Below are positions 7,833-40,812 of a DNA stretch of 64,000 nt, piece by piece. Both the position numbers and the translations under genes were made by a program. This stretch comes from Verrucomicrobiaceae bacterium (GTDB lineage Bacteria; Verrucomicrobiota; Verrucomicrobiia; Opitutales; Intestinicryptomonadaceae), in the NCBI GenBank assembly GCA_015061955.1, contig SUVO01000006.1, forward strand, positions 62,001-126,000. The letters run 5' to 3'. Position 1 is the first letter of the stretch, and each line of letters opens with the position of its first letter. The notes below the pieces were generated by a model. The model was not told the origin of the DNA, did not search any database, and worked only from the letters and a program-made list of their open reading frames with translations.

Positions 7833-9152
7833 TTAGTAAAGTTTTTTACCATCTAATAATTTTTTCAACTGTGTTTGAGGTTCTGGTTTATTACCTAAAA
7901 GTGGCTCAATTACTTTCATTGATTCCTCAGGCAAGTCTTTGTTTTCGATAGCCCACACGCAGTATTGATCTACTCTATCGCAAATGTTGGCATTTCGCAA
8001 AAGAGATTTTATAGATAAAATATGAAGCATTCCCATTGTAAATTGATTTGTTTCTTTTTGCGTTTTTGGACGACGTTTTTGTTTTATGAATTGTTCTACA
8101 ATATCGGCTTCTTTGCTGTTTATTAGCAAATTCATTATTCTGCGAATTGGTTTATAATTGCCATTTGCGTAGAATTCGCCCCAAAGCATATCAATTTGAG
8201 CTGGTGCTAAAACTTTGTCCCAATGTTCGTAGGGATTAGGAATATTTGCTTTTTGAAGATTGCGTTGGTATTTTATTTCGATTTTGCTCAAGAGTTTTTC
8301 ATCTATTGGTTTTTTACCCAAAATACGCATTAGTAAAATTGCTTTTGATTTTTCATCAGGCTTTAGATTACTGAAATTTTTTGAGATTTCATCTACGAGA
8401 AAATCATAGTGTAAAAATCCAGCCTTAAAGAACCCCAACATCATAAAGTTTAACTGATACGGAGCATTACGTTTAAGCAAATTTAGTTTTTTAGAAAAGA
8501 ACATAGAGTACAATAACTCGGCAGATGGTTTTAAATGAAATGTATAAAATGCTTTGTCGAGTATGTCGTCTGAGTCAATAGGCGTTGGGGCAACCCAATC
8601 AATTATTTCAACTTTTGTTGTATTTGATACATTCTTTTTTGCAATTTCATCTAAAACTGCAATCGTGAAATAGTAGACACCTTTTTGGTATTGTGAATCT
8701 AATTTGATATCGATTATATCGGGACAAGCGAGGATATCGTACAATGTTTTTTTTGCACCTTCGTACGATGCTGAATCTACTATTGTCAGATTTTTTCCGT
8801 CAGGGGCTGTAGCCGTTATTGTATACTTGATTTTGAATTTTCCATCTTTAATCGAGGCATTTCGCACTAATGGAAAGAGCGAAAACTTTTCACCAAAACG
8901 TACTTTGTTTACTGACGTTAGTTGTGGAATTGCGTCTTTAGGCATTTTGTGCCAAGCGTCCATATCGGCATCAATGGTCGATGCAATTATTTGGGTGTCG
9001 AATTGTTTGTTTTCGTTTTTATCGAGTTTATTATCTAAAATAAACTGAGTATGTGGCGTTATATTTACCTCGGGCTTTACCTGTTGGGCTTGCAACGATA
9101 TTGTGAAAATCGTTGCAAGTAAAATTGTGGTAATTCTTTTTAATTTTGTCAT
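7833..9152 (-). CDS. Secreted hypothetical protein
   Basis: 439-residue protein with an N-terminal signal peptide (hydrophobic stretch then SLQAQQ). No family is recognised. The first half looks like an Ig-like or beta-sandwich region (KFKIKYTITATAPDGKNLTI, then QKGVYYFTIAVLDE), and the second half is largely helical with repeated Lys/Leu-rich segments. No lipobox or transmembrane anchor follows the signal. It lies 1 nt downstream of the nucleotidyltransferase gene on the same strand, so it is the last gene of the minus-strand run with ruvC and a Gfo/Idh protein, although no functional link is evident. Confidence 0.6.
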   Translation of the reverse strand: MTKLKRITTILLATIFTISLQAQQVKPEVNITPHTQFILDNKLDKNENKQFDTQIIASTIDADMDAWHKMPKDAIPQLTSVNKVRFGEKFSLFPLVRNASIKDGKFKIKYTITATAPDGKNLTIVDSASYEGAKKTLYDILACPDIIDIKLDSQYQKGVYYFTIAVLDEIAKKNVSNTTKVEIIDWVAPTPIDSDDILDKAFYTFHLKPSAELLYSMFFSKKLNLLKRNAPYQLNFMMLGFFKAGFLHYDFLVDEISKNFSNLKPDEKSKAILLMRILGKKPIDEKLLSKIEIKYQRNLQKANIPNPYEHWDKVLAPAQIDMLWGEFYANGNYKPIRRIMNLLINSKEADIVEQFIKQKRRPKTQKETNQFTMGMLHILSIKSLLRNANICDRVDQYCVWAIENKDLPEESMKVIEPLLGNKPEPQTQLKKLLDGKKLY

Positions 9153-9153
9153 T

Positions 9154-9996
9154 TTAAATTCTGCCGTTTTCGTGCAAGAAGTTTTCTACAACTGGGACAT
9201 CATCTTTGTAGGTAACACCTTGCCATTTTTCATCAGTTGGCAATATTTTTGCATTTGCCAAACCTTCTTTTATTGCTTTATCTACTGCAAATGGCAGATA
9301 AAACTCGGCTTTCATATCCTTTGAATTTTTAGACAAGAAATCTTCAAAATACGTTCCGAGTATTTGCATAAATTCCTTTGGAAAACTCCAGAAGTTTAGC
9401 GATGTAAATTCTTCGCCAGTAAAGACGTTTTTATCGGCATCAATAATAGTATTGTTATCGCGTTGCAGTCCACCATGTTCTTGAATGTTTGTCAGAAACA
9501 AATTGTCATCGGCTTTGCAAATTCCTCGCGATACTGTTCCGTTGTCGGATAGTGTATTTTTTAATTTGTATCCAGCTAAAGCGTATTCGTTTACAGATGC
9601 AGTTTTCAAGAAGTTTGCAGAATCGGCATAAACATTGCGTCCATAGTAGTCGTCGGCATTTATCGCCAAGAATGGTTCGTTTACATTGTTTATCATCGAC
9701 AACACAGCGTGTCCTGTGCCCCATGGTTTTGTTCTACCCTCTGGAAGTTTAGGTTCGCAGAGTTCTTGAAACGAGTAGCGAACATCTATTTGATTTTCGT
9801 ATTTTTTCGATACCGTTTCACGAAAGATATCTTCAATATCTTTTCTAATTACGAACGCTATTTTATTAAAGCCAGCGTTCATTGCGTCTTCAATGGCGAA
9901 GTCGAGCATAGTCTTTCCACCGAATTTTGCAGCCTGTTTAAGGCCTCCGAAGCGGCTACCCATTCCAGCCGCCATTGCTATAAGTGTCTTGTTCAT
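9154..9996 (-). CDS. Nucleotidyltransferase (sugar-nucleotide pyrophosphorylase-like)
   Basis: 280-residue GT-A-fold nucleotidyltransferase that likely makes an NDP-sugar or phosphocholine-type activated group. The signature loop AAGMGSRFGGLKQ is at residues 9-21, and the metal/substrate segment AINADDYYG lies mid-protein. The start was set at 9996 because the signature begins there and its ATG overlaps the ruvC stop (ATGA); an upstream start would add 13 residues inside ruvC. It is translationally coupled to ruvC, an odd pairing that probably reflects genome packing. The specific nucleotide and sugar are not deducible. Confidence 0.8.
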   Translation of the reverse strand: MNKTLIAMAAGMGSRFGGLKQAAKFGGKTMLDFAIEDAMNAGFNKIAFVIRKDIEDIFRETVSKKYENQIDVRYSFQELCEPKLPEGRTKPWGTGHAVLSMINNVNEPFLAINADDYYGRNVYADSANFLKTASVNEYALAGYKLKNTLSDNGTVSRGICKADDNLFLTNIQEHGGLQRDNNTIIDADKNVFTGEEFTSLNFWSFPKEFMQILGTYFEDFLSKNSKDMKAEFYLPFAVDKAIKEGLANAKILPTDEKWQGVTYKDDVPVVENFLHENGRI

Positions 9997-10646
9997 ATTT
10001 TGTGTGTAAAAATGTGTGCCATAGCCGCACCACAAGCGTCGGCTTCATCGTTTGGTAATTCGGGAGCACCCTTTACTATGGAGGCAATCGATTTTACAAT
10101 TTGTTCTTTGCTTGCCCGACCGAAACCAATTACAGCCTGTTTTATGCGAAGTGGTGGGTACTCGAAAACTTCTAATCCTAAATGTGCAGCGGCAGCAATT
10201 GCAGCACCTCGTGACGAACCTAAAATCATTGCAGTTTTAAAATTTTGCACGTACACGCTTTGTTCTATTGCAACGCATATTGGGCTTGTTTGTACAATGA
10301 TTTTTTCGGTTTCTTCAAAAATTCTTGCAAGGCATTGTGCCATTGTCAATTTAGGTTCGTTGCGAACTGTTGTTGAGCATATATAACGCAACGAGCCATC
10401 TGGCATTGCTTCAACTACTGCCAAGCCTGTTCCACGCAACGATGGGTCGATGCCCAATACGATACCACGCATCTGGCGACCTCGCAAATTTTGCTCCTTC
10501 TGTGCCGATTTGCGTTTTTCGCCAGCTGTTTGCGAAGCCTTTGCTTTTATAGATTCAAAAGTCCATGCCGATGTACTACGCGAAGTTACTTTAATTTCGC
10601 CATCAATGATTTTTTGAGTCCAAAGGTTGCGAGAAGACTTTGCCAT
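9993..10646 (-). CDS. ruvC: Crossover junction endodeoxyribonuclease RuvC with an N-terminal extension
   Basis: Holliday-junction resolvase. The RNase-H-like core carries the four expected acidic residues: Asp67 in GIDPS, Glu128 in AIEQS, and Asp200/Asp203 in PNDEADA. The spacing between the first two matches the family. Unusually the reading frame adds about 58 residues ahead of the normal start (MRGIVLGIDPS), and this extension is basic and lysine/serine-rich. Either the extension is a real DNA-binding tail or translation starts at the internal Met59. Its 5' end lies 1 nt from the stop of the upstream Gfo/Idh gene, and it overlaps the nucleotidyltransferase start. ruvA and ruvB are not in the window. 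Confidence 0.9.
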   Translation of the reverse strand: MAKSSRNLWTQKIIDGEIKVTSRSTSAWTFESIKAKASQTAGEKRKSAQKEQNLRGRQMRGIVLGIDPSLRGTGLAVVEAMPDGSLRYICSTTVRNEPKLTMAQCLARIFEETEKIIVQTSPICVAIEQSVYVQNFKTAMILGSSRGAAIAAAAHLGLEVFEYPPLRIKQAVIGFGRASKEQIVKSIASIVKGAPELPNDEADACGAAMAHIFTHKI

Positions 10647-10647
10647 A

Positions 10648-11943
10648 TTAAATTATTTTGTATTCTCCTGAAATTGGCAGTGGCTCTATTGGGAGTTTGC
10701 CAAATTTTAGATTTTCGGGCAAGAGCGATTTTTTTGGTTTACGCAAAGCCCAATCAAATTTAAATTTGAGTCCTGAATAGGCGCTCATTCTCGCTGATAT
10801 AGCGTACATGCAAGCATCGGTCATTTCTGCTATTGTGTTTATAGCCAAGCCTTCGCGTGCCGATTTTACAAGTGTTCGGTATTCTTCAAAAATGGGGTCT
10901 TCAACCTGTGGCGACTGCCAATTATTTTTGCCTCTGATTAATTGTTTTGAAAACAAACTTGTTTCCATTACGCCTTCTGTACCAATTATTCTTTCTACAA
11001 CTTGAGGAGCTGTATTTGGTTCTTGACGACATTGCGCAAACAAGCGTACATCGTTGCCAAAATCGAACTCGGCACTGAAGTGCGAAAATCTGTTTCCGTA
11101 TTGAGGCATTGGTAGATTTAAACGTCTGCCACCTATTGCGCTTACAAAGTTTGGGTTTCTACCAAAAGCCCAACGCATAATATCGAGATTATGCACTTGT
11201 TGTTCTACTATGTGGTCTCCACAAGTCCATGTAAAAAGCCCCCAGTTGCGAAGCTGATATTCCAATTCTTCTGGATCAAAATTTGGTGGAGTTTTTAAAT
11301 CCATACCATCGAAGTGCGACAGGAACCAATAGCACTGTGCGTATAAAATCTCGCCAATCTGTCCGTCTTGAACTCGTTTGATTGCTTCCTGATAACCCTT
11401 GTGATAACGGCGTTGTACACCACTTATTGCTGTTAGATTTTTCTGTGTTGCAATGCTTGCAAGCTGATACATTTTTCTGGCTTGAACAGAATCTACGCAA
11501 ATTGGTTTTTCCATCAAAACGTGTTTATTGTGCATTATCGCATACTCAACTTCTTGTGGACGGAACACTGGAGGAGTTGCCAATACTGCAATATCAGCAC
11601 AATCAATAGCTTCTTTGTAAGCATCTAATCCTACAAAAATTCGGGATTGAGGTACGTCGAAAATATCTGTTTTGTTCTGATATTTTTCGGATAGCTCTAA
11701 AGCTTTTTTGTGTAGAGCTTTTGCACAATCATCAAATGCGTCGGCAATTGCAACAATTTTAGTGTTCTGATTTATCTTAAAGAGGGCTTTTATAGCTTTC
11801 CAGCCACTTCTACCAGAACCGATAATTGCAACTTTTAGAGTATCGGAACCTTTTGTTTTGGCAGAAGAATACAAAGGCATTGCCGACAACGCAAGTGTTG
11901 TGGCTGTTGTTTTTAAAAAATTTCTTCTGCCGATAAAATCCAT
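10648..11943 (-). CDS. Tat-exported Gfo/Idh/MocA family oxidoreductase
   Basis: 431-residue oxidoreductase with a Tat signal (GRRNFLKTTATTLALSA) and a Rossmann motif AIIGSGRSGWK near residues 40-50. The conserved lysine lies in MEKPICVD near residue 150, and a TWTCGDHIVEQQVHNLD segment carries the His/Asp typical of the catalytic domain. It belongs to a different branch from the paralogue at 4.4 kb. It is the first gene of the minus-strand run into ruvC and the nucleotidyltransferase with almost no spacing. The likely role is oxidation or epimerisation of a sugar in the periplasm; the substrate is unknown. Confidence 0.88.
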   Translation of the reverse strand: MDFIGRRNFLKTTATTLALSAMPLYSSAKTKGSDTLKVAIIGSGRSGWKAIKALFKINQNTKIVAIADAFDDCAKALHKKALELSEKYQNKTDIFDVPQSRIFVGLDAYKEAIDCADIAVLATPPVFRPQEVEYAIMHNKHVLMEKPICVDSVQARKMYQLASIATQKNLTAISGVQRRYHKGYQEAIKRVQDGQIGEILYAQCYWFLSHFDGMDLKTPPNFDPEELEYQLRNWGLFTWTCGDHIVEQQVHNLDIMRWAFGRNPNFVSAIGGRRLNLPMPQYGNRFSHFSAEFDFGNDVRLFAQCRQEPNTAPQVVERIIGTEGVMETSLFSKQLIRGKNNWQSPQVEDPIFEEYRTLVKSAREGLAINTIAEMTDACMYAISARMSAYSGLKFKFDWALRKPKKSLLPENLKFGKLPIEPLPISGEYKII

Positions 11944-32811: not shown

Positions 32812-32997
32812 CTATTCGTTTGTTTTTGTTGCTGCCTGTTTTTGAAGCTTGCGCATTTTTTGTTCTAACTCTAATGCTATTTTTCTATGGGTTGGCGTTT
32901 TTTGTAATGAGTTTATTGACTTATATGCAATTTTTAGTTCGTCTAAAATTTTTTTTGTTTCTTGATCGTTTTGTTCGTTTTGGTGTGTATTATTCAT
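32812..32997 (-). CDS. Small hypothetical helical protein
   Basis: 61-residue, highly charged protein with a helical, coiled-coil-like body (ILDELKIAYKSINSLQK, then ALELEQKMRKLQKQ). No signal or membrane segment. Its start overlaps the end of the ECF sigma gene by 8 nt, which supports co-translation and hence a possible anti-sigma or accessory role, but no family is recognised. It could also be a non-functional frame. Confidence 0.4.
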   Translation of the reverse strand: MNNTHQNEQNDQETKKILDELKIAYKSINSLQKTPTHRKIALELEQKMRKLQKQAATKTNE

Positions 32998-33652
32998 TGT
33001 AGAATTCCTTCATTCTTTCGTCTTCAGATAATATTTGTTTTAGTTTTTTTACAATTCTATATATCCCATTATTTATAACGTGTGCCGAAACTCCTAATTC
33101 GTTTACAACGTCGTTTATATCGACATTATTAAGTTTTATCATTTCAAAAGCTGTACAAGTACGAGCATCGAAATTATCGCGTATTGTTAGGTATGCGTCC
33201 ATTATTAAAGAGTACTTTAATGCGCGCATTTCTTCTTCGGCAAGTTTTGTTTTTGAATTAGAGGCAAGTTCTAATTCTGCTTGATATAAGGCTGTGCTGT
33301 CATCGTTGTCGATTGATTCTATCTGCGATATGTCAGAGTGTTTTCTGATGTAATCTACAACGCGTCTATCGCAAATTGTTTTTAGTAGAAATCTAAATCG
33401 AGACTTTTTTGAATCGTATTTGTCGGCATTAAAAAGTTTGTTGAGCGATACCACTACTTCGCTTACAACTTCATCAATAACTTGTTTGGGTGTACCGTAC
33501 CAACCTTTGTTGTAAAATGAGTTTGAAACCATTACTGTTATTGGTGCGTGATAGATATCGAAAAATCTTTGCCATGCACCATTCCAGACTGCACTTTTTT
33601 GTGGGTCTATAAGCTGAGATATAATAGTTTTAGGTGTATTGGGAATTTTCAT
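32990..33652 (-). CDS. ECF-type RNA polymerase sigma factor
   Basis: 220-residue sigma-70 family protein with region 2 near residues 45-110 (KSRFRFLLKTICDRRVVDYIRKH) and a region-4-like helix-turn-helix near 170-205 (VDINDVVNELGVSAHVINNGIYRIVKKLKQIL). It lacks regions 1 and 3 and so is ECF-like. The linker is longer than usual, as in PVC sigma factors linked to kinases. A promoter with TTTACA and TATTTT 17 nt apart ends 4 nt before the ATG. It lies just downstream of the Ser/Thr kinase gene on the same strand. Confidence 0.8.
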   Translation of the reverse strand: MKIPNTPKTIISQLIDPQKSAVWNGAWQRFFDIYHAPITVMVSNSFYNKGWYGTPKQVIDEVVSEVVVSLNKLFNADKYDSKKSRFRFLLKTICDRRVVDYIRKHSDISQIESIDNDDSTALYQAELELASNSKTKLAEEEMRALKYSLIMDAYLTIRDNFDARTCTAFEMIKLNNVDINDVVNELGVSAHVINNGIYRIVKKLKQILSEDERMKEFYNE

Positions 33653-33656
33653 CTAC

Positions 33657-33685
33657 AAAATACATTCGTGCTTGTTTTTTGTAAA
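33657..33685 (-). promoter_or_regulatory. Putative promoter of the ECF sigma gene
   Basis: On the minus strand TTTACA, a 17-nt spacer and TATTTT, ending 4 nt before the start codon; no Shine-Dalgarno is seen. It gives the sigma gene its own promoter inside the kinase-sigma region. Confidence 0.45.
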
Positions 33686-33698
33686 ATCACGCAAGTGT

Positions 33699-35249
33699 TT
33701 ATTTTTTTATCTCTTTTTGGTATAAATCTATCAGATTTTTTTCATTTAGATGTTCAGAATATTGTTTTTCAACATAGTTTCTATAATTTTCTATTGTTGT
33801 GAACGTTTGAGCGTGTTGTTCCATTTTTTTGTATGATTCAAAAGATTTAAGCAAATTATCTTTTGCCATTTTTCTAAGGTATAGTTTTTCTTTTTTTATG
33901 CTAACAATTCCAGGATATATGTAGGTGGCGTAGAATTGTTGTTTTAATTGCTCAATATGATTTGAAGTTAGTTTTGGGTTGCGTTTATGAATTTTTTCTT
34001 TGCGTTGCCATTCTTCGTGTTGGTATTGCATTGCTTCTTCTGCTTCAATGTTTATCTGAGCATCAGATTTTTCTGCTAATTCTTTTTGTTGTAAAAATTG
34101 TTGTTTGAAGCTTTCGGCATTGTCGAAGTTCGATTTTTTCCATTCTTCAAATGATTGAATTTTAATTTTTGTGATAGAATTTGAAAAACCATTCTGCGAT
34201 ACTTCTCTGAAAAATGCGTCTGAAAGTATAGTCTTTTTTGTAGGTTGATAAGTTGGTTGATTCCCTATTTGAGCGTGTTTTGTGGTATTTTGTAATGTGA
34301 AATACATTGCAAGTGCGCCAGTGAAAACGCATCCGATAGCAATGCTTGTGTATAGTGTAGGTTTTAGATTTTTATTAGGCTTTTTTGTAGGCGTTGCGAA
34401 ATTGAGCGATGATGAAAAATCGGTTGATACAATTGCATTGCGAAAATCTTGAATAGTTAAAAAGCGCTCTGTTGGATTTTCAGCGATTGCTCGCATTATA
34501 CATCTATGCCAGTGTAGCCATTGAGCTTTGTCGGTATCGGAAATTGAATCTGTTATCTTTTCGGGGAAACGATACGCTGGACGCCCGATTGTGTCGGGTA
34601 GGTTGCCAGTTATTAGCGAGTAAAAAGTGGTGGCAAGTCCGTAGGTGTCGGGATTACCTCCTTTGGCAATGTACCAACTCGGAGCAATATAAAGTGGAGT
34701 TCCTACATTCGATAGTGTTCGGTGGTCGTTTTCCAATAAACTAAAGTCTGATAGAGTTGGTTTCCCGTCGAAGAATAAGATGTTGTCGGGTTTGATGTCG
34801 CGATGTAGCATCGAGTTTTCGCCTAAGGCTATAGTTGCGTCAAAAATTGGTAAGATGAGCGATAATATTTCGTCTCGAGAAAACCATTCGTTTTTTTGCG
34901 AGTCTATTTTAGCGTCGATTATATTTGCTAGCGATTTTTCTTGCCAGCGAAAATCTGAAGGTGGAAATTTCTCAGCAGATTCTAGAGTATCGGCAAGAGG
35001 CATTACATAAAATATGGCAGAATTGTTTATTTTGCCACTTTCTATAATTTCAATAAAATTAGGTATGTTTTTTAGATTAGAATATTTTTCTAAAGCATTA
35101 GTTTCGCGAGATGCGTTTTCCGACTTTATTATTTTTATAGCTACATAGTTGTTCGTTTTATCTTGAGCTAAGTATACGTCGCCAAAACCACCTTTGCCGA
35201 TAAGTCGTAATAGTTTATAGCCAGAAATTTGCTCAATGTTATTAGTCAT
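33699..35249 (-). CDS. Membrane-anchored Ser/Thr protein kinase
   Basis: 516-residue Hanks-type kinase. The glycine-rich loop is IGKGGFGDVY near residues 17-26, the catalytic lysine is Lys39 in VAIKI, and the HRDIKPDN loop has Asp151. The metal-binding DFG is replaced by DFS at 168-170. An Ala-Pro segment (TPLYIAPSWY) stands for the APE region. One transmembrane helix lies near residues 295-315 and the C-terminal 200 residues are Lys/Glu/Gln-rich and helical, probably extracytoplasmic. It is encoded upstream of the ECF sigma factor, a pairing known in PVC bacteria where the kinase controls the sigma factor. Confidence 0.88.
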   Translation of the reverse strand: MTNNIEQISGYKLLRLIGKGGFGDVYLAQDKTNNYVAIKIIKSENASRETNALEKYSNLKNIPNFIEIIESGKINNSAIFYVMPLADTLESAEKFPPSDFRWQEKSLANIIDAKIDSQKNEWFSRDEILSLILPIFDATIALGENSMLHRDIKPDNILFFDGKPTLSDFSLLENDHRTLSNVGTPLYIAPSWYIAKGGNPDTYGLATTFYSLITGNLPDTIGRPAYRFPEKITDSISDTDKAQWLHWHRCIMRAIAENPTERFLTIQDFRNAIVSTDFSSSLNFATPTKKPNKNLKPTLYTSIAIGCVFTGALAMYFTLQNTTKHAQIGNQPTYQPTKKTILSDAFFREVSQNGFSNSITKIKIQSFEEWKKSNFDNAESFKQQFLQQKELAEKSDAQINIEAEEAMQYQHEEWQRKEKIHKRNPKLTSNHIEQLKQQFYATYIYPGIVSIKKEKLYLRKMAKDNLLKSFESYKKMEQHAQTFTTIENYRNYVEKQYSEHLNEKNLIDLYQKEIKK

Positions 35250-35860: not shown

Positions 35861-36089
35861 ATGAAAAAAAATAATATCTATAATATCAACCATTGCATTC
35901 GTAATACTAGCGTATGAAGTATACAATTGGTATGTATATAATTATGTATATAATTATGTATATAATTATGCATATAATTCAGAAATTCGTAGAATGCACA
36001 ATGAAGTAATTCAAGAAACAGAAAAGGCACAAAAAGAAATAATGCAAGAAGCTGCTAAGATGCAAAAAGCAATGCAGAACTTACAATAA
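35861..36089 (+). pseudogene. Frameshifted small membrane protein with VYNY repeats
   Basis: From the ATG the frame closes after 18 codons, but one base out of frame a long open frame runs to a stop at 36087. Removing one A from the run of eight A after the ATG restores a protein of about 75 residues: a single N-terminal membrane helix (ISIISTIAFVILAY), a VYNYVYNYVYNYAYN repeat region, and a polar helix (EVIQETEKAQKEIMQEAAKM). The repeat comes from three perfect 12-bp units at 35934-35969 and a partial fourth. It may be a pseudogene, a phase-variable gene, or a homopolymer sequencing error. Confidence 0.6.
35934..35979 (+). repeat. 12-bp tandem repeat (GTATATAATTAT)
   Basis: Three perfect copies at 35934-35945, 35946-35957 and 35958-35969, then a partial copy with one change. 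The unit is a multiple of three and encodes VYNY in the frameshifted gene, so copy-number change would leave its frame intact. Confidence 0.9.
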
Positions 36090-36096
36090 TAAAAAA

Positions 36097-36134
36097 GAGT
36101 TTGCTTGATTATCAAGCAAACTCGCAAGTACATA
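36097..36134 (+). promoter_or_regulatory. Palindromic operator-like site over the SPFH-cassette promoter
   Basis: Arms GAGTTTGCTTGA (36097-36108) and TCAAGCAAACTC (36112-36123) around TTA. They cover TTGATT (36105-36110), which with TACATA (36129-36134, 18-nt spacer) forms a promoter ending 6 nt before the ATG at 36141. Read on the minus strand the stem is followed by a T-run, so a terminator role is an alternative; read on the plus strand there is no T-run. Confidence 0.55.
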
Positions 36135-36140
36135 ATAATC

Positions 36141-37436
36141 ATGACAAACGAAGAATTAAGAAAAAAAGCACAGTGCCCTCGTTGTGGAGGAGAGATATCG
36201 TCAACAGACCTACAATGTAAATCTTGTGGTTTTGAAATTCCTAAGGCTGGAATTACGGGCGAATCTTATATAAAGGAATTGCAAGAAAAAATATATCAAG
36301 CCGGAAATGATGTATTTGTAATATCTAACGTAATTTCAACTTTTGCAATGCCAAATGATATAGAACATTTGTTAGAATTTTTAAGGTTTTGCGATTCATC
36401 TTACGAACAAAATTATTCTACAGTTGAAGTCTTTTCATATGATAAGAATTCTACTCCATCGTTTGTTCTTGCATCTGCATGGGGTGAAAAAGCCAAGTCT
36501 GCATATGATAGATTGTTGATAGCTACAAAAGATAATCAAGTAATAAAATCGCAAATTTCTATATTCGCCATAAAATATGCGGATGCTGATTCTGTAAGAA
36601 AACGTATTTTTAAAGCAAGAACTATAAAATCTATTCCTGTATTACCGGTTCTTATATTTAAATACTTTATAAAACATTGGTTCATTTTCTTAATATTCTT
36701 ATGCCTTGGTTCTTGTGCATTTATAATCATAGAAGATGAAACTAGACACGCTAAAATCGAAGAAAATCTTCAAAAGAAAGAAATTAAAGCAAAGGAGTAT
36801 CTAGAAAAATATGGATATTTCTCGAGTAAGACTGAACCTTTTGACTGCATTGTATATAGCGGCGTTATGGATATCGAACAAAATATCAATAAGTTTTTAG
36901 AAAAGAAAATGTACGAACAAGTACTTGCTAGCATGAAAAAATTATCGTTTGAAAAATCTGAAGATAATAATTTTAGAAGAATTTCAATAAAACGAAGAGA
37001 TGAAATTTTTTCTAAAATTTTATCAGATCCAAATGCAGGATTAGAAAAAGAAATAGAGTCATTAAGACGTTACTTGCAGTTAAGCGATTTATGTTTAGAC
37101 CAAGGAATAAGAAGAGAATATTTAAGTAAATATATAGACTTTTATAAGAAAGAAAACGACATCAGAAATCTTATCAAAGAGAAAAAATATTCGGAAGCAA
37201 TTTCATTGTTAAATGAATTTGTAGTAGATGAAAACTCATGGAGAATAGAGTATTATAAATTGCAAATTAGGGTTAGAAATTCTTTGATAGATGAGTTCTC
37301 AAATTCTGTACCTAAAGAAATATTAGAAAAAATTACTGAAATTATAAATAGATTAAACAAACAGCAAGAAGCACAATTAGAAGAGAAGAATAGAACTGAA
37401 ATGAGAACAAACATGAATTTAAATATTGATATATAA
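36141..37436 (+). CDS. Zinc-ribbon membrane protein
   Basis: 431-residue protein, first gene of the SPFH cassette. The N-terminus is a double-CxxC zinc ribbon (Cys12, Cys15, Cys26, Cys29). One strong membrane helix lies near residues 172-200 (FIKHWFIFLIFLCLGSCAFII). The following 230 residues are lysine/glutamate-rich and helical, with degenerate TPR-like segments (KKMYEQVLASMKKL, EKKYSEAISLLNEF). No catalytic motif is seen. The start was set at the ATG after the promoter; an upstream TTG would add 12 residues read from the palindrome. Translation continues into the SPFH gene 13 nt later, which has its own AAGGA. Confidence 0.65.
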   Translation: MTNEELRKKAQCPRCGGEISSTDLQCKSCGFEIPKAGITGESYIKELQEKIYQAGNDVFVISNVISTFAMPNDIEHLLEFLRFCDSSYEQNYSTVEVFSYDKNSTPSFVLASAWGEKAKSAYDRLLIATKDNQVIKSQISIFAIKYADADSVRKRIFKARTIKSIPVLPVLIFKYFIKHWFIFLIFLCLGSCAFIIIEDETRHAKIEENLQKKEIKAKEYLEKYGYFSSKTEPFDCIVYSGVMDIEQNINKFLEKKMYEQVLASMKKLSFEKSEDNNFRRISIKRRDEIFSKILSDPNAGLEKEIESLRRYLQLSDLCLDQGIRREYLSKYIDFYKKENDIRNLIKEKKYSEAISLLNEFVVDENSWRIEYYKLQIRVRNSLIDEFSNSVPKEILEKITEIINRLNKQQEAQLEEKNRTEMRTNMNLNIDI

Positions 37437-37449
37437 GAAGGATAAGATA

Positions 37450-38886
37450 ATGGGACTTTTTAATTTTGGCAAAAAAGGTGGCGTGTTTGCAGACGTCATA
37501 AGATGTGATGAACCTGACTATTTAGTTTGGAAATGGCGTCCTGAAGGATCAGAAGCAGATTCTTCAGGCAGAGAAAATTCTATTCGTTGGGGTAGTCAGT
37601 TACGTGTTAAAGATGGCGAAGTTGCTGTTTTTGTTTACAAACAAAAAGGTGGTTCTAATCAAGATTTTATAGAGGGACCTTTTGATGAAACTTTAAAAAC
37701 TGCAAACTTCCCAGTTTTATCAAATATAATGGGTGCTTTGTTTGATGGAAAAACACCATTTCAAGCTGAAGTATATTTCATTAATCTTGCTGGTGTAATT
37801 AAGCAAAATTTTGGTGTTCCATACTTCGACGTAGCTGATCCAAGACCAGATTTAGCATATCTTCCTGTTCCTGTTGCTGCGAGTGGAAATATAATTTATC
37901 AGATTACCGATTATAAGGCATTCATTAAATTACATCGTTTACAAGAATTTACTTTAGAGAAATTTAAAGATGAAGTTAAGAACACAATCATTACAAACTT
38001 TAGAGGAATTGTTACAAATGTACCACAGCAGTTTAATATTCCATTAGTTCAAATCGACAGAGCTACCTTAGAAGTAAATGATTTTGTTTCTAATCGTCTT
38101 AAAGGTATATTTGATGATGTCTTTGGTGTAAATCTAAAGCGTATCGACTTTGTTTTAAATGTAGATAAAGATTCTGCAAATTACAAAACGCTTTATAAGA
38201 TGACTGTTGAGCAGCAGATGAAGTTAAATGAAGCTCAAACAAATGTAAACGTAAAGAATTTATCCGAAATGCAAGCTATCAATGCTGAAAATATAAAGGA
38301 ATCTTTACGCATTCAAAGAGAAGAAGCTCAAAGGGCTCAAAAATTGCGTTCCGAATCTGGAAATATTTTTGCGCATCAAATTAACGTACAAGGTGGTGTT
38401 GCAAAAGAAGCTGCAAGTCATATTGGCGAAATTGGAGCTGGTGCTACTATGCCATTAGGTGGTGGTGATTCTACTGGTGGAATGAATATGGCTGGTATGA
38501 TGACTGGTATGATGGTTGGAGGTGCAATGGGAAGAGGCGTTGCTGATATGATGAATAACACAATGTCTGGTTTTGCTAATCCAATGGGGAATGTTGGTAT
38601 GGCGTCTCAAATGAGGGGAATGCCTCCTGTTCAACCTACTATGAATCCACCACAAATGAATGCAGACGATAACATTGTAATGCATGTTTCACAAAATGGC
38701 CAACAATTTGGTCCATATAAGGTGTCGGATATTAAAAATTATATATCTTCTGGAAACATAAATTCTTCTGCTCTTGTTTGGACAAATGGAATGAGCGAAT
38801 GGACACCAATTGCAAATTATCCTGCATTTTGTAATCTTTTTGGTGGTAGCGTACCACCACCTCCACCACCATCGCCAATGAGTTAA
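37450..38886 (+). CDS. SPFH-domain protein with C-terminal GYF2 domain (virion-core/YdjI-like)
   Basis: 478-residue protein. Residues about 20-260 are an SPFH domain of the type annotated as virion-core-like and found in Bacillus YdjI (KWRPEGSEADSSG, FGVPYFDVADPRPDLAYLPV, IDFVLNVDKDS). A coiled coil follows (LNEAQTNVNVKNLSEMQAI), then a Gly/Met-rich linker (MAGMMTGMMVGGAMG). The C-terminus is a GYF2 (DUF4339) module: QNGQQFGPYKVSDIKNYI...ALVWTNGMSEWTPI, ending in a proline run. It has no membrane anchor of its own and likely assembles at membranes with its neighbours. AAGGA precedes the ATG. Confidence 0.82.
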   Translation: MGLFNFGKKGGVFADVIRCDEPDYLVWKWRPEGSEADSSGRENSIRWGSQLRVKDGEVAVFVYKQKGGSNQDFIEGPFDETLKTANFPVLSNIMGALFDGKTPFQAEVYFINLAGVIKQNFGVPYFDVADPRPDLAYLPVPVAASGNIIYQITDYKAFIKLHRLQEFTLEKFKDEVKNTIITNFRGIVTNVPQQFNIPLVQIDRATLEVNDFVSNRLKGIFDDVFGVNLKRIDFVLNVDKDSANYKTLYKMTVEQQMKLNEAQTNVNVKNLSEMQAINAENIKESLRIQREEAQRAQKLRSESGNIFAHQINVQGGVAKEAASHIGEIGAGATMPLGGGDSTGGMNMAGMMTGMMVGGAMGRGVADMMNNTMSGFANPMGNVGMASQMRGMPPVQPTMNPPQMNADDNIVMHVSQNGQQFGPYKVSDIKNYISSGNINSSALVWTNGMSEWTPIANYPAFCNLFGGSVPPPPPPSPMS

Positions 38887-38890
38887 TACT

Positions 38891-39274
38891 ATGGATATAG
38901 AAAATCATTCTACACCAAGTTCCGACTTTCTTGTATCACCTATGGAAACAATGATGCAAGTTGGTTTAGGACTTTCTATCGGGCAACAAATGGCTAGAAA
39001 TATAAGCGATTATGTTTTTGCTTGCAACAAACAACAAATGTTGCGAGCCCCATTTATTCCTCCTTCAGAATCTACTGAACACTTATATTTTGTTGCGCAA
39101 AAAACAACGTATATAGGTCCATTCCCCATAAATGAAATTCTTAGAAAAATGGGAGATGGGACAATCACCACAGAAACATTAATTTGGCGAAAAGGACTTC
39201 CTTCTTGGATTAAATTAAAGGATTGTTCCGAGATTTCAGCAACTTTCTTGCCACCACCTCTTCCTCCACAATGA
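38891..39274 (+). CDS. Short GYF2-domain protein
   Basis: 127-residue protein. The C-terminal 60 residues are a second GYF2 (DUF4339) module (LYFVAQKTTYIGPFPINEIL...LIWRKGLPSWIKL), ending in a proline-rich tail (PPPLPPQ), as does the SPFH protein before it. The N-terminal half has no recognisable domain. It begins 4 nt after the SPFH gene and its stop overlaps the start of the next gene (ATGA). GYF2 modules bind proline-rich segments, so the two GYF proteins may bind each other's tails. Confidence 0.7.
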   Translation: MDIENHSTPSSDFLVSPMETMMQVGLGLSIGQQMARNISDYVFACNKQQMLRAPFIPPSESTEHLYFVAQKTTYIGPFPINEILRKMGDGTITTETLIWRKGLPSWIKLKDCSEISATFLPPPLPPQ

Positions 39275-39633
39275 AAAATATAAAAATAAATTGGATTTTG
39301 TTTGTATGTTCTCTTGTTCTATCTGCGTTGCTAGTTCTTATGGAATATAAGCTTTATGGTAGTAATTCGGAGCGTATCAGTTTTATTATATTGAATTTCA
39401 TTGGTGTGCTTATTCCTTTGGCAGGAATGTTAGCTACATCTGTTGGTGTTGATAGAACAATAGCGTTAGGAAAAACACTTAGCTTATTATTCTTCTTTGT
39501 GAATGTAGTTTTTTCGCTGTTGGGATTTGTTTCGTGGAGTTCAAGTACAGTAGCATTTATATTTTATGGGTTTTCTTTGTGCCTATATTTCTTGTGCAGC
39601 TATATGTTTTGTAAAGTGCAAATTTGTAAATAA
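39271..39633 (+). CDS. Small multi-spanning membrane protein
   Basis: 120-residue hydrophobic protein with four likely membrane helices (about residues 6-26, 36-58, 66-88 and 93-116). The start overlaps the preceding stop (ATGA), which fixes it at 39271; an earlier in-frame codon would read through the neighbour's tail. No family recognised. Co-translation with the GYF2 gene places it in the SPFH cassette, presumably as its membrane partner. Confidence 0.65.
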   Translation: MKNIKINWILFVCSLVLSALLVLMEYKLYGSNSERISFIILNFIGVLIPLAGMLATSVGVDRTIALGKTLSLLFFFVNVVFSLLGFVSWSSSTVAFIFYGFSLCLYFLCSYMFCKVQICK

Positions 39634-39692
39634 TTTTAAATTTTAAGGGATATTCTAATTTTATTATAAACCAAATTAAGAAAATAAAAACT

Positions 39693-40751
39693 ATGAATAC
39701 AAATATATTAAATAGCAATATGAAGGAGTTATACTTAACTAAAGTATCAAAAGAAGACGCTGTGCGTAAAGCTATTCTGCATATAATTGACAACCCATCT
39801 ATTTCTTCAGGATTGATAGAGGATGTAGATTGGGATTCTTTAGATGTTACTTATATTCCAACATATTCATATAGAATTTCTTGGAAAGCTCATTGGTCTG
39901 CTGATATAGGACATAATTACACAGTTCAGACCAATGGGGGTAATAATAGAACCGAAACAAGATGGACATCAAGTGTGGGAGCTGAATCTGGAAATGAAAC
40001 TTATACTTTAATTGCCAACAGAGACAGGTTTACAAGTGATATATTTGATGCTTCGGGTTTTGTAATGGGGCATACAAAAAGACCCATTACTGCGTCTGAT
40101 AATCAATATAAATTTTTAGAAGTAGATATGTCGGAATGTGATCATAGCGATACATTAGAAAGCCGAATTAATAATGTGGCAGAAAATACTTGTCGAAATG
40201 CTGCGAAAAATGAAGGTGATAAATATAGGAGTCTAAATGTATCGAGTAGTCATAGTATAAATATGCGTGAACAAGGATATGTTCCATTTTGGGAACTTAT
40301 ATTTAAGGAAAAAACAGATGAAAAAAAAGATGAAGAAAAAGATAGAGGTGTTTGTATAAATGCTGTAACAGGACATGTTGGTATGACTTATGAAAAAAAC
40401 ATTAGTTTCTATATTCGCCTTGTTTTTGCTTTTGTGATACCTGCTTTTATTATTGCTTCATTTTTCTTCGATGAGGGACCCAAGAATACAAATGCTATGT
40501 TAATAACTGGAGCCTCAAGTATTGCTATTGCTTTATTAATGTATCCAGCAATTAGCATATATCGACTTTTTAAATTTGAAAAATATATAAATTCAAAAGA
40601 TGTTGGCTTTATAAGAAGATTTATTTTATGGATATATAGATCAGTAAAAGGTTTGTTTACATCAAAGAACAATAAATCAGAATCTAAGTCCGATACAAAT
40701 GTTTCATCACAAGGAGATAGCGAGAAACTTGCCGACGTAGATAATAAATAA
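39693..40751 (+). CDS. Membrane protein of the SPFH cassette (YdjG-like region)
   Basis: 352-residue protein. The first 230 residues form a soluble, beta-rich domain with the segments VTYIPTYSYRISWKAHW and GYVPFWELIF, reminiscent of the domain in zinc-ribbon proteins encoded beside SPFH genes (B. subtilis YdjG type), but without the zinc ribbon, which here may be supplied by the protein at 36.1 kb. Two membrane helices follow near residues 240-262 and 268-293, then a polar Ser/Lys-rich tail. It is the last gene of the cassette; a terminator lies 30 nt downstream. The family link is tentative. Confidence 0.55.
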   Translation: MNTNILNSNMKELYLTKVSKEDAVRKAILHIIDNPSISSGLIEDVDWDSLDVTYIPTYSYRISWKAHWSADIGHNYTVQTNGGNNRTETRWTSSVGAESGNETYTLIANRDRFTSDIFDASGFVMGHTKRPITASDNQYKFLEVDMSECDHSDTLESRINNVAENTCRNAAKNEGDKYRSLNVSSSHSINMREQGYVPFWELIFKEKTDEKKDEEKDRGVCINAVTGHVGMTYEKNISFYIRLVFAFVIPAFIIASFFFDEGPKNTNAMLITGASSIAIALLMYPAISIYRLFKFEKYINSKDVGFIRRFILWIYRSVKGLFTSKNNKSESKSDTNVSSQGDSEKLADVDNK

Positions 40752-40781
40752 ATTTTAGAAAAATTCTCTCTGAAGAGCAAG

Positions 40782-40812
40782 GCGATAATCGAAAGATTAT
40801 CGCTTTATTTTT
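40782..40812 (+). terminator. Terminator of the SPFH cassette
   Basis: Arms GCGATAATC and GATTATCGC around a GAAA loop, followed by a T-rich tract. Confidence 0.85.

Follow-up and report, generated by a model that had tools for sequence, protein, structure and literature searches.

Gene Content and Domains of the Cassette

We analysed a stretch of 64,000 nucleotides (nt) from the genome of a Verrucomicrobiaceae bacterium (contig SUVO01000006.1, positions 62,001 to 126,000; hereafter the window), in which the open reading frames (ORFs) between 36141 and 40751 define a cassette of five + strand genes with short spacing, in the order g1-g2-g3-g4-g5 (Table 1). The initial annotation had described them as tightly spaced genes on one strand closed by a terminator, and the ORFs, the gaps (13 nt between g1 and g2, 4 nt between g2 and g3, a 4-nt overlap of g3 and g4, and 59 nt between g4 and g5) and the hairpin at 40779-40806 agree with this. 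Its list of products (a zinc-ribbon membrane protein, an SPFH-GYF2 protein, a second GYF2 protein, a four-helix and a two-helix protein) is likewise matched by the domains and by the transmembrane (TM) helices predicted from hydropathy, one in g1, none in g2 and g3, four in g4 and two in g5. Because the g1-g4 order recurs in distant bacteria (see below), the arrangement goes beyond chance.

In Pfam, g2 matched Band_7_1 (PF13421) with 64.9 bits against a gathering cut-off of 24, and GYF_2 (PF14237; cut-off 25.8) was found in g2 with 54.9 bits and in g3 with 43.4 bits. The core G-P and both W positions of GYF_2 are invariant in 31 g3-type sequences. The ribbon of g1 (CPRCGG...CKSCG) is visible by eye; its Pfam zinc-ribbon scores lie under the cut-offs (best 17.1 of 27.6), and Zn_ribbon_3 matched (E 0.01 or better) 43 of the 51 members of the g1 family alignment A3, which comprises the window and 50 of the 60 non-window rows of the g1 profile (nine of all 61 rows being second or third copies within one locus). 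The AlphaFold2 model of g1 is confident (mostly >90) at about 40-140; Foldseek gave no match for it at E 0.001. No Pfam family was found for g4 and g5 at E up to 1. Members of the g1, g3, g4 and g5 profiles were gathered by iteration seeded with the window, and the profiles were later rebuilt without it; these window-free profiles recovered g1 (60 relatives, ribbon removed; E 5.3e-11), g3 (32 relatives; E 1.4e-14), g4 (25 relatives; E 6.8e-11) and g5 (36 relatives; 42.4 bits, E 3.6e-11), the best of 200 shuffles being 0.33 in any of the four and E 9.2 for g5. The segment of g3 before GYF2, profiled alone, gave E 0.068.

Table 1. Features of the cassette and its borders in the window (aa, amino acids; TM, transmembrane).
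Feature	Position	Strand	Description
Near-perfect inverted repeat directly 5' of g1	36097..36123	.	12-pair stem; - strand terminator-like, or operator
g1	36141..37436	+	431 aa; N-terminal zinc ribbon, FPIPNTKEDILEF-type helical domain, one TM ~179-197, helical C-terminal extension
g2	37450..38886	+	478 aa; SPFH (Band_7_1), long helix, Met/Gly-rich segment, GYF_2 (412-459), PPPPPP tail; no TM
g3	38891..39274	+	127 aa; small, GYF_2 (66-114), PPPLPP tail
g4	39271..39633	+	120 aa; four TM; start overlaps g3 stop by 4 nt
g5	39693..40751	+	352 aa; zinc-ribbon SPFH-partner (YdjG-type) domain but no zinc ribbon of its own; two TM helices and a charged tail
Hairpin 3' of g5	40779..40806	+	Resembles an intrinsic terminator; T-rich tail

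The g1-g4 Quartet in Distant Bacteria

Genome contigs were scanned for distant relatives with g2, aligned to five further SPFH-GYF2 proteins, as the query, and the best 80 of 570 confirmed stretches were taken as loci (numbered with the prefix L). Judged by sequence, g2 is a member of an SPFH subfamily that has an additional long helix and whose close loci (L131-L193; best segments 34-56% identical to g2) come mainly from Bacteroidota, Bacillota and Actinomycetota, a few lying elsewhere. The SPFH-GYF2 linker has a median of 157 in 63 close-subfamily proteins vs. 97 in 40 ordinary SPFH-GYF2 proteins, and its longest run free of P and GG measures 98 vs. 36.5.

Neighbourhoods were counted in 63 close loci, i.e., the window and 62 others (L169, with an ORF lacking GYF2, was dropped). 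Of these, 49 have a g1-type gene in the 2.5 kb upstream, a count that may be low, since L168, L170, L176 and L179 have an unflagged upstream zinc-ribbon/TM gene; at least 600 bp of upstream sequence is available in 57 loci and less than 600 bp in six. A g3-type gene was found within 2.5 kb downstream in 29/63 and a g4-type gene within 3.5 kb in 24/63, both together in 19/63, and g1, g3 and g4 are all present in 16/63: the window, 14 Bacteroidota and one Pseudomonadota (Propionivibrio limicola). L143, L154, L155 and L166, e.g., show the same g1-g2-g3-g4 order as the window, with SPFH best segments 46-56% identical to g2, but, unlike the window, without an adjoining g5. The quartet of L148 also takes in (8410-10975) a second g1-type gene and a gene for a protein of 309 aa, in which two GYF2-like stretches are seen by eye.

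The separate zinc-ribbon protein and the added GYF2 partner, which the initial annotation took for local novelties, both recur across the SPFH subfamily. Of the five genes, only g1-g4 were found together elsewhere; the full set was found in no other place, and g5 is a local addition; "unique to this genome" is thus true of the five genes and false for the quartet. No report combining SPFH, GYF_2/DUF4339 and a zinc ribbon was found among the papers listed by literature searches that covered few subscription journals, and to that extent the combination is, as proposed, unreported. The gene set is therefore real, conserved, undescribed as far as the literature searches reach, and extended by one local addition.

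In the phylogenetic tree, the window is placed at the base of the subfamily, its exact place being weakly supported. The label 'phylum' changes seven times on this tree, the least possible number being six, so a recent transfer between phyla is unsupported and we name no donor.

The Fifth Gene

The domain of g5 is present in 27 ORFs from loci of the host phylum (window included) and in L172, L199, L200, L202-L205 and L207-L210, where its neighbour is usually an ordinary SPFH gene and the protein as a rule also has two zinc ribbons and a TM helix; in L172 it accompanies a second SPFH gene, and L148 has a weak match (E 0.0027), which lies on the opposite strand. When 36 cassette genomes were searched whole (completeness unstated), the g5 alignment matched in 14 (E 0.001): the nine strong matches (E 5e-28 or better) are all in genomes that hold Bacillota loci, and four Bacteroidota genomes matched at ~1e-5 only, over short stretches. 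In the window, the quartet is thus joined by a g5 protein devoid of zinc ribbons, an association seen nowhere else. The YdjG-like region assigned to g5 earlier is borne out by the window-free profile as homology to a zinc-ribbon SPFH-partner family, YdjG itself being likened by description.

Related in layout are the two-gene modules in many of L096-L130 and L199-L210, in which, as in the window, an SPFH-GYF2-polyproline protein adjoins a g5-domain partner. They differ from the window in a shorter linker, in partners that mostly have two zinc ribbons, and in that no g1, g3 or g4 was flagged. L093, where an SPFH gene, a three-TM gene, a g5-domain gene and two GYF2 genes stand consecutively, resembles a parallel assembly.

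Near Relatives and Host Phylum

Near relatives were searched in 88 genomes (its own, 13 of the same genus, five more of the family and 69 of the order) with g2 and g5 as the only whole-genome queries. The SPFH part of g2 and g5 were each found in the cassette's own genome alone and are absent from the 13 genus mates; in 21 other genomes the matches were confined to the GYF2 region of g2 (query 386 onward). All nine genus mates examined have the block that starts with a sugar-transferase gene (40886), and the nine stretches around it contained no ORF matching g1-g5 (E 1e-10 over 100 aa). Because g2 and g5 are confined to one of the 88 genomes and these nine stretches lack g1-g5 matches, the cassette looks accessory in its host lineage. 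Lack of conservation in related genomes, which had been named as evidence against the cassette, was accordingly found among near relatives (for g2 and g5) but not among distant bacteria.

In the host phylum, PF13421 matched 128/387 genomes, and SPFH-GYF2 fusions are common (24 of the 67 SPFH proteins of at least 280 aa in the phylum loci examined). The nearest to g2 among the loci compared is L090 (211.6 bits; next 99.5), with zinc-ribbon genes downstream, one of them weakly g1-like (E 0.013).

GYF2 Modules and Polyproline Tails

Tails were counted in SPFH proteins of at least 280 aa from all loci read, uncorrected for relatedness: PPP occurs in the last 45 residues of 69/103 proteins with GYF2 vs. 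1/46 without, and anywhere in 95/103 vs. 11/46. The sole GYF2-less protein with a PPP tail is that of L207, where GYF2 sits in the next short ORF. Short GYF2 ORFs (those of the window and L207 included) end in a PP tail in 33/34 cases and in a PPP tail in 28/34. The terminal PPP counts make GYF2-polyproline contacts likely, as had been supposed from the sequence of the window. GYF2 is also carried by other proteins encoded beside the SPFH gene, namely HerA-like ATPases (L150, L162) and the 309-aa protein of L148. Taken together, the tails, the invariant GYF2 core, the long linker and the HerA-like ATPases fit, without proving, a scaffold whose GYF2 modules read the polyproline tails of other chains. 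In L113, L116-L119 and L124, GYF2-less SPFH proteins bear tails that look helix-turn-helix-like by eye, in place of GYF2 or a zinc ribbon. A g2-g3 fusion in L140 was rejected as proof of contact, since a long C run at the junction may reflect an assembly error and the sister locus L146 has separate genes.

GYF domains are described in PMC12034629 as a eukaryote-associated reader of proline motifs. The only solved structure matched by g2 and by the g3 profile at E 0.01 was that of GltJ/AgmX of gliding motility (PDB 7z3c), which shares the GYF_2 domain with g2 and g3; the GYF part alone matches, and scores of 26.6 and 34.3 bits stand against an NCBIfam GltJ cut-off of 450.

Comparison with pspA-ydjGHI

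According to PMC8581546, localisation of YdjI in B. subtilis requires the membrane proteins YdjG and YdjH, and the pspA-ydjGHI genes resemble the cassette in encoding a TM-less SPFH protein together with membrane proteins. YdjG, as described in PMC11237479 (two zinc ribbons, a YpeB-related NTF2-like domain and a TM helix), resembles the g5 relatives in architecture, the two being likened by description. In g5 itself, the related domain and TM helices are present and the zinc ribbons absent, and a fold search gave no clear match. The cassette differs further in that the ribbon is on g1 and not on g2 or g5, that g2 and g3 have GYF2 and polyproline tails, and that no TPM/YdjH-type domain was found in g1-g5 (Pfam, E up to 1). 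PspA (PF04012) had no match in the host genome, which is 93% complete, nor in 31 of the 36 other cassette genomes (completeness unstated); nine of 14 control genomes were positive in this search. Because PspA went undetected in the host and in these 31 genomes, the cassette is not the pspA-ydjGHI system: by analogy it may work like a YdjI-type scaffold, yet it lacks the defining PspA and YdjH features.

Flanking Signals

The inverted repeat at 36097..36123 has no second copy in the window, even with as many as 3 mismatches allowed (100 shuffles gave a mean of 0.00). Terminator-like sites in the region number four vs. 1.9 in shuffles, and a promoter scan was uninformative (25 sites vs. 28.6 in shuffles). 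By eye, a small + strand ORF at ~35862-36089, which has a TM-like segment and YVYN-like repeats in tandem, seems broken near its start at an A run, which could be a sequencing error or real.

Discussion

Domains, topology and the recurring neighbourhood support the initial view of a coherent membrane cassette. Reading the sequences together, we lean slightly towards the cassette encoding a PspA-independent SPFH membrane scaffold; by analogy, such a scaffold would probably have a role in envelope integrity, and the likeness to YdjI makes a part in membrane surveillance or stress plausible. SPFH proteins build membrane-abutting cages, as PMC12624060 describes, and g2 would oligomerise at the cytoplasmic side of the membrane to form a ring or cage, like the solved ring-forming SPFH proteins, with g1 (through its zinc ribbon and helical domain) and g4 anchoring the assembly. 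The GYF2 modules of g2 and g3 would bind the polyproline tails of neighbouring g2 or g3 chains and so cross-link subunits, and they may also recruit GYF2-tailed clients to the scaffold. As a sensor or extra anchor, g5 would contribute the domain that serves YdjG-type partners next to ordinary SPFH proteins, and the most likely job of the whole would be to keep or reorganise membrane regions under envelope stress. The salt-tolerance gene stlA, which encodes a four-TM protein and was described on an Akkermansia-like fosmid also holding DUF4339 and kinase genes (PMC3861447), is kept as a lead only.

Several observations weigh against the scaffold. No experiment on any cassette member was found in the literature searched, and the role in envelope stress is argued solely by analogy. 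Not every locus has the partners g1, g3 and g4: a g1-type match within 2.5 kb upstream is lacking in 14 of the 63 close loci, many Bacillota loci show g1 and g2 only, and in none of the 62 close loci other than the window does the g5 domain stand beside the SPFH-GYF2 gene. The g5 model is poor (predicted local distance difference test score 64.5, predicted template modelling score 0.45) and was matched to nothing by Foldseek at E 0.001 or better, and the 59-nt gap before g5 leaves room for its separate control. Terminal PPP is missing in 34/103 GYF2-bearing SPFH proteins, the GYF2/tail association being uncorrected for shared ancestry, and PspA is present in 5/36 cassette genomes.

HflKC is an SPFH assembly that controls FtsH, and the cassette might similarly serve membrane-protein quality control, with an SPFH cage controlling a protease or chaperone and GYF2 picking substrates or clients. 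Ordinary SPFH-GYF2 proteins lack the long helix that follows the SPFH domain in the close subfamily, and this helix fits the cage-forming SPFH proteins of PMC12624060; a HerA-like ATPase carrying GYF_2 follows the SPFH-GYF2 gene in L150 (7221-8966) and L162 (2178-3886). These fusions are, however, restricted to two of the 63 close loci (the HerA-like ATPase of L137 has no GYF2), and among 110 proteins flanking Bacteroidota-type loci S9 peptidases matched two, a number that no protease family exceeds among the best 25 of 150 families. We regard quality control as unlikely. Somewhat less probable still is that GYF2 pairs with polyproline within one chain as an autoinhibitory latch rather than a cross-link: GYF2 and the tail do lie next to each other in one chain, but a separate small GYF2 protein, mostly proline-tailed, is co-encoded in 29/63 loci.

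An anti-phage or other conflict system, as in the defence role suggested initially, seems improbable. It would account for a patchy distribution, seen both in the genus mates without g2 and g5 and in the family of Bacteroides sp. 214, where 8/151 genomes (completeness unstated) have the SPFH subfamily. TerB and DUF533 each matched 11/51 g1-type proteins (e.g., L143 5842-6630), a possible link to Ter-type stress systems. However, PADLOC-DB 2.0.0 gave no family for any of g1-g5 at E up to 1, and the flanking genes of the Bacteroidota-type loci are mixed, housekeeping genes included; protein kinases are the commonest (4/110 proteins) and alone exceed two among the best 25 of 150 families. The PADLOC families matched in these flanks (best 25 of 82) have four members each, which is the number of kinases there. 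A kinase gene lies near 7/63 close loci, 7/68 other SPFH loci and 0/17 of L194-L210 (locus sizes differ), so a special link of the cassette to a neighbouring Ser/Thr kinase was rejected. In the window, an ECF-type (extracytoplasmic function) sigma factor gene adjoins a Ser/Thr kinase gene at 32990-35249 (- strand), divergent from the cassette, and relatives of both are adjacent in another genome too (G003, L222).

A scan of viral contigs with g2 as query gave no relative, which also weighs against a conflict system. A plasmid search with g5 gave nothing useful, plasmid matches of the SPFH protein reached at most partial coverage, and g1-g5 matched no PHROG at E 0.001. The sole match in a phage collection (L251; MT835670.1, 'Bacteriophage sp.') has g1-type and SPFH-GYF2 genes; it is unannotated and its other ORFs look bacterial by eye (ABC transporter-like, response-regulator-like), and we therefore rejected 'phage-borne' as a description.

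Least probable of all is a divergent pspA-ydjGHI copy still working with PspA, since the shared SPFH Pfam family, the YdjG-type domain in g5 and the five genomes with PspA are set against its lack of a match in the host and 31 others and the absence of a TPM/YdjH-type domain.

To our knowledge, the binding partners of bacterial SPFH proteins are mostly unclear. Returning to the PspA-independent scaffold, we tentatively suggest, with less confidence than for the cassette itself, that it could represent a widespread class of SPFH cages in at least four phyla, a plug-in scaffold held and loaded by GYF2-polyproline contacts, in which the same short tails are the hub that combines zinc-ribbon anchors, four-TM proteins, HerA-like ATPases and YdjG-type domains. 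A conserved gene set in which an SPFH protein is paired with modules that bind proline and with tails to match amounts to a concrete, testable assembly rule, and this rule would apply in genomes mostly without detectable PspA (31/36 and the host). If it is true, GYF domains would here organise a bacterial membrane.

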